From: Georgenia sp. EYE_87
GTDB taxonomy: Bacteria > Actinomycetota > Actinomycetes > Actinomycetales > Actinomycetaceae
Assembly: GCF_023148685.1 (NCBI RefSeq)
Contig: NZ_JAHXNL010000010.1
Location: forward strand, 62,001-126,000
Length of the DNA: 64,000 bases
Reading direction: 5' to 3'
Numbering within the stretch: position 1 is the first letter of the stretch; each line of letters opens with the position of its first letter. This document shows, piece by piece, positions 6,407 to 25,750 of the stretch. The notes under the pieces were generated by a model. It saw nothing but the letters and a program-made list of their open reading frames with translations, was not told where the DNA came from and did not search any database. The translations under genes were made by a program, and so were the position numbers.

Positions 6407-8638
6407 ATGTCTACGCTGAACGTGGTGGCTGGCGCGCTCGCAGTCGGTGTGCTCGTGGCCGGAGGAACTGCCGTCCCGACGCAGGCCGAGACGCCCGCGG
6501 GTGGTGCGCACGGACCCGCTCAGCCGCTGACCGTCATCTCGCTCACCGACGACGACGGGAGCCGCACCGGCGTCGCCGTCGCGGGGCTCGACGAGCTGGC
6601 GGTGGACTCGTCGGACGGTGCGGTCGACGACGTGCAGACCGGGTACACCGCCGCTCCCGCGGGGGCGGGCGCGGCCGGGATCGGGCGGGGGGTCGCTGCC
6701 GTGCGGCCTGCTGTCACCGGGACGGCCGCAGCGCTCGAGAACGTCGCGGTCCTCACGCCGCCGATGGCCACCGACGAGTTCATGGTGGCGGGTCTCACCT
6801 GGGAGGCGGGGGACCCCCTCCCCGCCGGCGGTCGCGTCTTTCTCCGGGTGCTCGAGGACGGCAGCTGGTCTGACTGGCTCGAGGTGGAGGAGGAGGACGG
6901 GGCGGACGAGGGCCGGGGCGGCAGGGCCGGCACGGACCCGTTCGTCACCGGCGGCGCCACGGCGGTCCAGATCCAGGTCACGGGCGACGCGGTGGACCTC
7001 CCGGCGGGCCTGGAGGTCAGCCTGATCCCGGCCGCACCGGATCCCGCCGCCCCCGAGACGGTCGTCACGGAGCCCACCGACGAGCCTGCGGAGCTCCCCG
7101 CCGGCGAACCGACCGCCACCACCGAGCCGGCCGCCTTCACCTCGCTCGGCGCCACCCGGGCCGGCGTCGTCGCCGCCGCGGTCACCACCGACCGGCCCGG
7201 CGCGTCCGGCACCGCACTCCCCGGCTCAACTGCCGCCGCCGCACCTGCGGGCGCGCTCCCCGCCACAGCCGCGTCGTTCGTGACGACCGCATCCGCGAGC
7301 GGCCCAACCACACCTGCCGCCGCTGCCGCGCCCCTGAGCGCCGTGGCCCCGGCGGCCGTGACCACGCCGCGCCCCGCCATCACCAGCCGGGCCGGCTGGG
7401 GGGCGGACGAGTCACTCATGGACTGGCGCCGGACCTACGCGCCCCTGCGGGCCACCGTGGTGCATCACACGGCGGGCTCGAACACCTACGCCTGGGACGA
7501 GTCGGCGTCGGTCGTACGTGGCATCTACCACTACCACGCCGTGACCAGGGGCTGGGGCGACATCGGCTACAACTTCCTCGTCGACAGGTGGGGCCGGGTG
7601 TTCGAGGGCCGGTCGGGCTCGCTCGCTGCGCCGGAGGGGCAGATGGTGGTGGGCGGCCACGCGCAGCCGTTCAACTCCGGGACGCTGGGGATCTCCGCCA
7701 TGGGCACCTTCACCTCCAGCAGTACTCCCAGCCGCACGCCGATCCTCGACTCCATGGCCGACGTCGTCGCCTGGCAGTTCGCCCGGGCCGGCATCGACAT
7801 GACCTCACCGAGCGGGCTGATCTCGAACGGGACCCCGACTCGCCCAGCGGGGCAGAACCTCCCGCGCATCTTCGGGCACAAGGACGTCAGCAACACCTCG
7901 TGCCCCGGCCTGTTCTACGGCGACCTCAGCCGACTATCGGTGAACGTGAACGCACGAATGCCGCAGCTGTTCCATCTCAACAATGCCTTCGGTCCTGTTG
8001 CGGACATCACCTTCCGGTACGGGGACAAAGGCGCGGAGGTCTTCGTCGGCGACTGGGACGGTGACGGTGTAGACAGCATCGCCACTCGTGTCGGCAACAC
8101 CTTCGACATCAGGAACTCCAACTCCTACGGTCCCGCTGACCGGGTGGTCCCTTACGGCAAGGTTGGCGACACCGTGCTGGTGGGGGACTGGGACGGCGAC
8201 GGGGTCGACACCTTCGCGGTGCGGCGGGGCAAGGAGTACTACGTCAAGAACTCTCTCACCTCGGGGCCGGCGGACGTGGTGATCGCTTACGGTCACGCCG
8301 GGGATCAGGTTCTCGTCGGTGACTGGAACGGTGACGGGCAGGACACCTTCACCGTGCGTCGTGGCCACCTCTACTACGTGAAGAACAGAATCGCGGGCGG
8401 TGAGGCGGACACCGTCGTGGGCTACGGCCGAGCTACCGACAGCGTTCTCGTCGGCGACTGGGACGGCGACGGCAACGACACGTTCGCCGTGAAGCGGACA
8501 GCGCGGTACTACATCAAGAACACCATCGCAGCGGGAGACGCCGACTTCGAACTGGTCTACGGCAGGCCGACCGACTGGGTCATTGTCGGCGACTGGAACG
8601 GTGACAGTGAGGACACGCTGGGGGTCGTGCGGCCCTGA
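6407..8638 (+). CDS. Secreted N-acetylmuramoyl-L-alanine amidase (PGRP type) with five-blade repeat module
   Basis: 743 residues from ATG 6407, with a GGGGGAG ribosome site ending 6 bp upstream. A signal peptide ends near QAE. A low-complexity Ala/Thr/Pro linker (about residues 220-325) leads to an amidase_2/PGRP domain (about 325-515). Zinc ligands by alignment with T7 lysozyme are H353 (VVHHTAG), H491 and C499 ([12 protein letters not shown]), with the same eight-residue His-Cys step. It should cleave the amide bond between MurNAc and the stem peptide. The C-terminus has five repeats of the [19 protein letters not shown] type, each with a DxDGDxxD calcium-loop-like motif; the last ends DTLGVVRP. 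The module recurs in four neighbouring proteins and may anchor the enzyme to the cell envelope (inference). Confidence 0.9.
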
Positions 8639-8681
8639 CGGCTTCACCTTCAAGCGACAGGCAGCCCCATACGATGCTCGG

Positions 8682-24420: not shown

Positions 24421-24532
24421 GGGGTGTGCGAGTGCCGACGCTCGTGCGGCGCGTCTTCACCCGTGTCAGCCCACCGCTGCGTACCTTGAATCCGGACGAC
24501 GACGTTTTTCCGACGCGGCAGATGGGAAATCG

Positions 24533-25750
24533 ATGGCGGGCCTCAGGATCGCAGAAGGGCTGGTTATCGGCATCCTCCTCGCTGGCCTCGTGGTCGGAGG
24601 AAGCCCCTCCGCCACGGCCAAGGGTGGCGAGATCGGCGGGACCGGCCAGCTCTATCTGTTCTCCGACGACTTCGGTACGAGCGCCAGCCGCGAGCTGATC
24701 TACGGCAGATCCTGGGATCGCGTGCTGGTGGGCGACTGGGACGGGGACGGCAGGGACACTCTGGCGGTGCGGCGGGACAGGAGCTACCACATCAAGAACA
24801 GCCTGACCGGTGGTGCAGCGGACCGTGTGGTGGATTACGGCCGCGACGACGACGTGGTGCTGGTCGGTGACTGGGACGGGGACGGCAGGGACACTCTGGC
24901 GGTGCGGCGGGGGAGCCTGTACTTCTTCAAGGACGACCTGTCGGGCGGTACGGCGGACAGGGTGGTGGGCTATGGCCGCGACGACGACGTGGTGCTGGTC
25001 GGTGACTGGGACGGGGACGGCAGGGACACCCTCGCGGTGCGGCGGGGGAGCCTGTACTTCTTCAAGGACGACCTGATTGCCGGTGCAGCCGACCGGGTGG
25101 TGGGTTACGGCCGCCCCGCCGACGTCGTAGTCGTGGGGGACTGGGACGGAAACGACGCCGACAGCCTCGCTGTCCGCCGGGAGAACTACTACTTCGTCGC
25201 GAACGGTTTCGGCGGCGGCGAGGCAGACCTTGTGGTGCCCTACGGCCGGGCGAGTGATGCCGCCCTCGTGGGCGACTGGGACGCCGACGGCACGGACACG
25301 CTGGGCCTGCGCCGCCCGTCGCCCGTTCCGGCCCAGCCCACCAGCCAGCCCCCGGTGCTCGCCTACGGCACGCTCCGCAGCGGCCAGAGTGCCCACTCGG
25401 TGATCGGCCGCACCGTCAAGGAGGCGCTCAGCCGCGCCCCGGGCCTGGACCTGTACATGATCAGCGGGTACAGCTTCCCGTGGGCCGTCCCGAACGCCGT
25501 GAACACCGCAGGTATCGCCGGAGAGCTGTTCTGGTTCCCCTCCTCCACCTACTGGAGCGACATCGCCCGGCTGGACCGGTACGAGCGGTACGACCCCTCG
25601 AGGCCGGCGAGCGACCAGCTCTACACCAGGGAGCGCCGCGCCACGTCGTACGGGGTGGGTGCATGGGTCTACGTCGCGACGCCCCGCTGGGCGAGCATCG
25701 CCCGCGACCGGGGCACCCGGATCCCGTCGGGGGACTACGTCAGATGGTGA
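24533..25750 (+). CDS. Secreted five-blade protein fused to a gamma-glutamylamine-cyclotransferase-like domain
   Basis: 405 residues from ATG 24533. The N-terminal segment (LVIGILLAGLVVGGSPSATA) is a signal peptide. Residues about 35-265 are five GDWDGDG blades, the last ending DTLGLRRPS. A short Pro linker leads to a C-terminal domain (about 273-405) with features of the AIG2/GGACT fold: AYGTLRSGQSAH (Tyr278-Gly-Thr-Leu), GELFWFP, LDRYERYD with Glu351 at the position of the human GGACT catalytic Glu82, LYTRERRA and AWVYVAT. Known relatives are cytosolic and act on gamma-glutamyl amines; a secreted one on a propeller is unusual. A wall or secreted-peptide substrate is only a guess. Confidence 0.85.
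   Translation: MAGLRIAEGLVIGILLAGLVVGGSPSATAKGGEIGGTGQLYLFSDDFGTSASRELIYGRSWDRVLVGDWDGDGRDTLAVRRDRSYHIKNSLTGGAADRVVDYGRDDDVVLVGDWDGDGRDTLAVRRGSLYFFKDDLSGGTADRVVGYGRDDDVVLVGDWDGDGRDTLAVRRGSLYFFKDDLIAGAADRVVGYGRPADVVVVGDWDGNDADSLAVRRENYYFVANGFGGGEADLVVPYGRASDAALVGDWDADGTDTLGLRRPSPVPAQPTSQPPVLAYGTLRSGQSAHSVIGRTVKEALSRAPGLDLYMISGYSFPWAVPNAVNTAGIAGELFWFPSSTYWSDIARLDRYERYDPSRPASDQLYTRERRATSYGVGAWVYVATPRWASIARDRGTRIPSGDYVRW
24841..25075 (+). repeat. Near-identical blade duplication, 135-bp period
   Basis: Bases 24841-24940 and 24976-25075 differ at 2 of 100 positions. They encode consecutive blades of the cyclotransferase-fused protein. The 135-bp period equals 45 codons, the same as in the LGFP/BNR_4 gene. 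Confidence 0.88.

Follow-up and report, generated by a model that had tools for sequence, protein, structure and literature searches.

The DNA analysed here, called the window throughout, is a 64,000-nucleotide stretch of Georgenia sp. EYE_87 (positions 62001-126000 of contig C2) in a genome of 4.35 Mb and 38 contigs. Among polysaccharide genes it encodes five proteins that share a repeat module of about 225 residues, and this module, its predicted fold and its probable task at the cell wall are the subject of this work. The five genes, together with the positions of the modules in four of them, are as follows:

6407..8638, + strand: P0001, secreted Amidase_2 protein with C-terminal module (Amidase_2 E 4.5e-13; five repeats, pitch 45)
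7955..8635, + strand: five-blade module of P0001
16567..18504, - strand: P0002, SpoIID/LytB protein with C-terminal module (SpoIID E 4.4e-27; TIGR02669 175.9 bits, cut-off 83.3)
16573..17247, - strand: five-blade module of P0002
19587..20663, - strand: P0003, N-terminal module, then about 96 residues with no Pfam match above the cut-off
19881..20555, - strand: five-blade module of P0003 (folded alone as 19878-20570)
21721..24420, - strand: P0004, LGFP repeat, four-unit module and BNR_4 domain of the polysaccharide lyase family 42 (PL42, formerly glycoside hydrolase family GH145) kind (LGFP E 1.2e-9; BNR_4 E 3.3e-85)
24533..25750, + strand: P0005, N-terminal module and GGACT domain (GGACT E 1.2e-13)
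24641..25315, + strand: five-blade module of P0005

In P0001, P0002, P0003 and P0005 alike, the module consists of five repeats with a pitch of exactly 45 residues and a GDW[D/N] loop, and it ends with the motif D(T/S)LG(V/L)xR, which the first-pass annotation had already noticed as the closing motif of most of these proteins. The same annotation had counted five repeats in each of the five proteins; this holds for the four just named and fails for P0004, which has four units. It had also taken P0003 for a module standing alone, and here the further residues behind the module correct the picture. Identity across proteins averages 59 to 66% for the middle repeats 2 to 4 and is lower for the first and the last repeat. 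The match of P0003 to the second-best copy in the genome (E 1.7e-103) excludes chance by far, and in an alignment of 108 modules the positions of a DxDxDGxxD-like loop are kept in all five blades. A short linker, AKG-x-E-(V/I)-GG, lies between the signal peptide and the N-terminal module of P0003 and P0005 and recurs at loci L021, L022, L037 and L038.

An AlphaFold2 model of the isolated P0003 module, for which the 108 aligned modules served as additional input, forms 20 strands in groups of four (predicted local distance difference test, pLDDT, 95.9; predicted template modelling score, pTM, 0.91), and it supports an interpretation of the module as a closed, five-bladed FG-GAP-type beta-propeller. 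In the actinobacterial register the module opens with strands 3 and 4 and closes with strands 1 and 2, so that one blade would be completed by both module ends, and this shared blade may account for the distinct closing motif. In a second register, found in 13 modules from Bifidobacterium and Bacillota loci, strand 2 comes first and strand 1 last, and a G-x-W end replaces the loop; in a third, assigned by eye to the module of a phage endolysin, strand 1 comes first and strand 4 last. The registers were assigned by reading the sequences, and in each of the three, which are circular permutations of one another, a five-unit module adds up to 20 strands. Such permutations are possible in a closed ring and are not demanded by an open array, which lends the ring support from sequence independently of the model.

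Structure comparison with VIA-align placed UmbA4 first (PDB 9oee; Z 12.9, root-mean-square deviation 3.8, 213 aligned residues, 24% identity) and Tc-toxin propeller chains second (Z 10.9), and the matches include olfactomedin and glutaminyl-cyclase propellers, both of which we take to be five-bladed. The closed five-bladed fold proposed in the first pass is thus backed by the 20-strand model, by the three registers, by these fold matches and by the blade counts reported in the next paragraph. Tachylectin-2-type five-bladed lectins were absent among the best 50 VIA-align matches listed, which is no evidence either way. Foldseek gave KICSTOR, fungal N-acetylglucosamine (GlcNAc) lectins and BBS propellers as best PDB matches, with template modelling scores to the query of 0.38 to 0.52 over the first 15 matches.

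Blade number was surveyed in 207 distinct modules taken from the Georgenia genome itself, from 76 named loci, from two virus contigs and from 60 stretches of family genomes. A hidden Markov model (HMM) of the repeat scored five blades in 186 of them. The named loci had been ranked by likeness to a five-blade query, which biases them toward five; among 68 open frames of family genomes, fetched on any match from some of the genomes listed and free of this ranking bias, 56 have five blades. The 21 modules with a different HMM count were subdivided by eye: three are cut by contig ends (L046, L056, L068), four are fragments of interrupted or shifted reading frames (L101, L150 twice, L175), five have five units when read by eye (L113, L191, L194, L196, L201), six have four units (P0004, L108, L149, L164, L165, L185), one has six (L098) and two are distant (L114, L186). 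Arrays longer than six units were not seen among the 207 modules. The first-pass annotation had set a constant ring size against widely varying repeat counts in related genomes; the latter did not occur, the cases other than five being few, and open-ended repeats are rejected on the basis of this near-constant count. The six units of L098 (6978-8717, in a metagenome-assembled genome of Isoptericola) are nearly identical to one another and represent either a real six-blade ring or an assembly artefact.

The module genes of the window are interspersed with genes for nucleotide-sugar synthesis and glycosyl transfer, and further genes of this kind lie upstream of it:

3935..4930, - strand: rmlB (TIGR01181 467.1 bits, cut-off 365.1)
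4996..6318, - strand: nucleotide-sugar dehydrogenase, UDP-glucose (uridine diphosphate glucose) dehydrogenase-like (TIGR03026 415 bits, cut-off 189.8)
8682..11297, + strand: double glycosyltransferase protein (PF13692 in two stretches, E 3e-34)
11433..12566, + strand: glycosyltransferase family 2 (PF00535 E 8.2e-24)
14949..15875, - strand: rhamnosyltransferase-like glycosyltransferase (TIGR01556 200.4 bits, just below the cut-off of 200.55)
15872..16489, - strand: rmlC (TIGR01221 142.5 bits, below the cut-off of 155.75; PF00908 over its cut-off)
18720..19565, + strand: rmlD (TIGR01214 293.3 bits, cut-off 224.05)
20756..21625, - strand: rmlA (TIGR01207 486.5 bits, cut-off 360.65)
L026 16636-18862 and L027 4380-10420, together C2 36.6-50.4 kb: DegT, Gfo/Idh/MocA, WecB and nucleotide-sugar dehydrogenase genes

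The dehydrogenase at 4996..6318 scores 376.1 bits with the TuaD model, below the cut-off of 700. The upstream region extends over 36.6-57.5 kb of C2 and encodes, besides a DegT aminotransferase and a Gfo/Idh/MocA oxidoreductase, a member of a polysaccharide flippase family, WecB (over the cut-off), another nucleotide-sugar dehydrogenase and transport proteins of the Wzt and ABC2 types. A set of DegT, Gfo/Idh/MocA, WecB and nucleotide-sugar dehydrogenase proteins can make (di)acetamido-uronic acids. It is a fair inference that the polymer specified by the locus contains rhamnose and a uronic acid and leaves the cell through a transporter. Three side observations may be added. A diacetamido-uronic acid, which the upstream gene kinds could make by the pathway just mentioned, is the sugar class of the receptor of umbrella toxins, to which UmbA4 belongs. 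A second rmlA-like gene (L034 14153-14911; C34 near 115 kb) is 96% identical to the rmlA of the window over 253 residues and has a further module gene at a distance of about 4 kb. Finally, a 752-codon open frame at 38138-40396 (- strand) has a start that, by eye only, resembles cytochrome P450.

A search with P0003 combined with the repeat HMM retrieved 19 module proteins from the genome, 18 of them five-bladed and P0004 with its four units. Eight are encoded in the 14-87 kb interval of C2, that is, within 74 kb in and around the polysaccharide locus, a concentration that was reached in 0 of 100000 simulations of random placement. The other 11 are spread over contigs C1, C7, C11, C12, C23, C34 and C38, and the first-pass statement that all module genes lie among rml and glycosyltransferase genes is therefore true of the window and not of the genome. 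Partner domains over the Pfam cut-off are Amidase_2 (P0001, L033), SpoIID (P0002), LGFP with BNR_4 (P0004) and GGACT (P0005), and furthermore phytase, CAP, 5'-nucleotidase with Metallophos, Laminin_G_3, S8 protease with I9, NlpC/P60, and M23 with SH3_3. An Excalibur partner scored slightly below the Pfam cut-off, and the remaining six of the 19 proteins have no partner above it. No more than 30 residues separate the module from the C-terminus in 12 of the 19 proteins and in 155 of the 207 distinct modules; in five of the 19 it lies close to the beginning of the open frame. Relatives reach 76% identity and come mainly from Georgenia; Bifidobacterium, Actinomyces and Lachnospiraceae are also among the hosts. 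In total, 13 of 41 genomes of the family and 17 of 296 genomes of the phylum bear the module. In one genome of the phylum, a protein (L117 1339-2826) combines a distant module with a polysaccharide deacetylase domain, and this too is an enzyme of the wall type.

With moderate confidence, we propose that the module is a lectin which binds an acidic glycopolymer in the wall of the cell that makes it. It would act as a shared retention tag on exported proteins, above all on enzymes of wall remodelling and of the cell surface. The likely ligand would be the uronic-acid- and rhamnose-containing polymer encoded around the window, which is the least certain step of the proposal. We think of a lectin because the closest structural match, UmbA4, is a six-bladed umbrella-toxin lectin whose propeller, according to PMC13274773, binds a teichuronic-acid-like polymer of target walls. 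Targeting to the wall is suggested because an endolysin-like virus protein carries the module at its C-terminus, and an anchor-like use because 19 proteins with diverse partners share it, mostly in C-terminal position. The link to the polymer is drawn because the eight copies within 74 kb adjoin rmlABCD, two nucleotide-sugar dehydrogenase genes, wecB and Wzt/Wzm-type genes. By analogy with UmbA4, a role as wall-polymer receptor is plausible.

The 11 copies away from the locus and the wall hydrolases among the partners would also suit a generic binder of peptidoglycan or wall teichoic acid that has nothing to do with the locus polymer. We regard this as unlikely, since the patchy spread of the module within family and phylum would be odd for a ligand that is a universal wall component, and since the module is linked to RmlC (see below). 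Propellers of the FG-GAP type bind proteins as well, examples being the KICSTOR and BBS chains at the top of the Foldseek list, and one may also think of an integrin-like scaffold that assembles exported enzymes through protein-protein contacts and has no sugar ligand. A single tag on very diverse partners, for which no dedicated protein receptor was identified, and a locus linkage that concerns sugar-polymer genes make this the least probable of the alternatives we weighed.

The lectin proposal and a narrower one, the suggestion of the first-pass annotation that the module is a receptor which depends on calcium and specifically recognises the rhamnose in the wall polymer, both draw on the association with rml genes. 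Within the family, RmlC is present in all 13 module-bearing genomes and in 12 of the 28 others (Fisher p 3.7e-4). Genome G038 was counted as module-bearing by the search and its fetched match (L186) is distant; without it, p is 9.8e-4. RmlC lies at most 20 kb from a module gene in eight of the 13 genomes against 1.9 expected (P 6e-5), the distances being upper bounds among the matches listed, and the lack of any link to polysaccharide loci in related genomes, with which the first pass had reckoned as the opposite outcome, did not occur. The 30 module-bearing genomes reached from the named loci, a few of which are identical to family genomes, all contain RmlC, and at least one Rml homologue is found in the flanks of 15 of the 76 named loci, some of which overlap. 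For a rhamnose receptor in particular, one can cite these figures, the rml genes directly beside the module genes of the window and the DxD-type loops that are kept in every blade of the 108 aligned modules.

Several observations weigh against the lectin proposal, and some of them bear on the rhamnose receptor even more directly. Linkage is weaker at 10 kb (4 of 13 genomes, expected 1.0, P 0.013), both cut-offs were picked after the distances had been seen, and kinship among the genomes means that the association tests overstate independence. At the scale of the phylum, RmlC occurs in 16 of 16 module positives and in 17 of 20 negatives, so it does not discriminate outside the family, and rhamnose genes are ruled out as a discriminating marker there. 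In three Lachnospiraceae loci (L074, L085, L105), the flanks that were fetched yielded no Rml homologue, although RmlC is present in the respective genomes. A PL42-like domain as in P0004 occurs in only two of the 41 family genomes, one of which (G002) contains neither module nor RmlC, and such a lyase is accordingly no standard companion of the module. All 41 family genomes encode a sortase; the module is thus no stand-in for a missing one, and this candidate explanation is ruled out. The collections of phage and plasmid records yielded no module match. To these points we have to add the 11 copies outside the locus and, with respect to UmbA4, its six blades and the lack of a detectable sequence relation: a 108-row module profile gave no match among PDB sequences at E up to 10, P0003 matched none of the PDB sequences, and two distant relatives used as bridges matched only through their partner domains (polysaccharide deacetylases, xylosidase). 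The relation between module and UmbA4 consequently rests on structure, and common descent is not supported by sequence.

For the rhamnose receptor, the frequency of RmlC in phylum genomes that lack the module, the Rml-free flanks in Lachnospiraceae and the scattered copies are all unfavourable. In addition, according to PMC13274773, the polymer bound by UmbA4 is without rhamnose and calcium is not resolved in UmbA4. To speak of a rhamnose receptor dependent on calcium is more specific than the evidence warrants, and we consider such a receptor unlikely.

P0004 deserves separate consideration. Apart from the module, it contains a PL42-like domain in two parts:

23185..23787, - strand: module of P0004, four units (strand 2 start, strand 1 end; 16 strands by reading)
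22261..23202, - strand: main part of the PL42-like domain, with the conserved counterparts of BT3686 His90 and Tyr143 (His48 not conserved)
21721..22140, - strand: C-terminal part of the PL42-like domain, bounds approximate, including the counterpart of BT3686 Arg333

The first-pass annotation had assigned five blades to this module, one of them degenerate. That reading is rejected, because reading of the module sequence reveals four full units, with four GDW loops, in the second register (DSLGVRR at the start in strand 2, VLVGDW at the end in strand 1). One stretch that three Lachnospiraceae orthologues retain is missing in P0004, and its structural model is of lower confidence (pLDDT 85.6) and has 15 strands, the last one not being formed. 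Four units, 16 strands and the second register are likewise found in Demequina (L108). The BNR_4 domain matches PDB 5muk with E 4.1e-96 and 7esk (FoRham1) with E 1.2e-26, and it also matches the PL42 structures 4irt, 5mum and 5mvh; with NF052497, the equivalog model for BT3686-type rhamnosidases, P0004 scores 518 bits, below the cut-off of 700. In PMC8406133, His90, Tyr143 and Arg333 of BT3686 are described as essential for lyase activity, and His48 appears there and in PMC8377490 as a posterior residue of the hydrolase site. P0004 keeps the positions aligned with the three lyase residues and does not keep His48. From BT3686 and FoRham1, which are PL42 rhamnose-alpha-1,4-glucuronate lyases, P0004 differs by its fusion to LGFP and the module. 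Since LGFP, module and lyase-like domain are joined in one protein and characterised relatives cut rhamnose-alpha-1,4-glucuronate, P0004 would be suited to trim the polymer of the locus. Orthologues with 45 to 48% identity and the same order of LGFP, module and lyase are encoded in the Lachnospiraceae loci L074, L085 and L105. Further module genes lie beside the orthologue in the first two and one lies nearby in the third, dehydrogenase homologues occur in the flanks of all three, and L105 has a homologue of glycosyltransferase family 2.

Six virus loci were found. In one (virus contig L113/L207), an endolysin-like protein (phrog_1493, E 3.9e-20) carries the full ring at its C-terminus. In a second (L114/L211), an Amidase_2 protein has short FG-GAP-like repeats, and the others were judged by eye to be more distant or to belong to other repeat types, with no repeat-HMM match at L212. 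The phage evidence is therefore a single close case. On virus contig L210 (4518-5804), an M23-like protein, so classified by eye, has ordinary FG-GAP-like repeats in a plan similar to that of wall-hydrolase fusions.

A broader picture can be drawn, which we offer tentatively and hold to be less likely than the lectin proposal itself: one wall glycopolymer might be read by one ring lectin in three roles, namely the retention of host proteins, the guidance of a lyase of the P0004 type that finds and trims the polymer, and host finding by a phage endolysin. Umbrella-toxin lectins would then be distant members turned on neighbours, and the ring would have been circularly permuted at least twice and be shared by Actinomycetota and Lachnospiraceae, with its five blades kept. 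Should the module indeed be a wall lectin, a widespread and barely catalogued tag would explain wall retention in Georgenia, Actinomyces, Actinotignum, Bifidobacterium and some Lachnospiraceae, and the module together with neighbouring polymer genes would provide a sequence handle on poorly known polymers of the teichuronic-acid-like type. A bacterial wall polymer would become a candidate natural substrate for PL42 lyases, and the compact, stable ring could be used to label such walls. With its fixed blade number across three circular registers, the module would furthermore be a clear-cut natural example in which to study what holds the ring size of propellers constant.

Among catalogued families, FG-GAP_3 (PF13517) comes closest. 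It matches P0001 (20.0 bits), P0003 (15.8), L030 (17.4) and L021 (23.8) below its cut-off of 26.9 bits and is not listed for P0002, P0004 and P0005 at E up to 1; one of the 19 module proteins of the genome passes the cut-off (L034, 27.7 bits). NCBIfam has no model for the module, and among the open-access papers searched, the listings gave no description of the repeat motif and nothing relevant on FG-GAP in combination with wall-binding terms. An example of ordinary FG-GAP_3 is provided by P0006 (27151-28818, + strand), two genes on from the cluster, with five such stretches behind an N-terminal region that has no Pfam match above the cut-off. Its repeat type is different from that of the five-blade module, which has a fixed pitch of 45 residues and a fixed ring size.

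UmbA4 from the umbrella toxins of Streptomyces has in common with the module the propeller fold and conserved calcium-type loops, and according to PMC13274773 it binds a wall glycopolymer, as the module is proposed to do. The same paper gives UmbA5 a five-bladed lectin domain. UmbA4 differs in its six blades, in its position behind trypsin-like and bulb-lectin domains and, as described there, in being aimed at other species; no Trypsin family member, the N-terminal domain of the UmbA type, is among the Pfam matches of the 19 module proteins. The resemblance raises the question of whether the module could itself, as a lectin or a carbohydrate-binding module, recognise glycans of foreign origin, be it host mucus, plant matter or other bacteria. 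Bifidobacterium, Actinomyces and Lachnospiraceae as hosts would fit, and so would the studied PL42 relatives, which act on plant arabinogalactan according to PMC8377490 and PMC8406133. We nevertheless find a foreign ligand improbable in view of the partners (amidases, NlpC/P60, M23, SpoIID/LytB), the position of module genes inside a polysaccharide-synthesis locus and the phage endolysin that carries the module, and retain the lectin for the cell's own wall polymer as the preferred reading.

The Psathyrella and Agrocybe lectins PVL, PAL and AAL, which we take to be seven-bladed, are with about 400 residues larger than the module and share only 10 to 15% identity with it. They resemble it as propellers of the FG-GAP type (Z 8.8 to 10.2), and according to the titles of the PDB entries their structures were solved with GlcNAc ligands.

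With regard to function, the nearest parallels are of another kind. Matches to the SLH, CWB2, GW and choline-binding families were absent from the window proteins (E up to 1) and from the other module proteins of the genome (E up to 0.05), and the folds of these repeats are unrelated to that of the module. SLH, CWB2, GW and choline-binding repeats anchor proteins to wall polymers of Gram-positive bacteria, each being one tag on many exported proteins and often terminal. Current databases barely cover the five-blade module, and its task is likely to resemble that of these known wall-binding domains.

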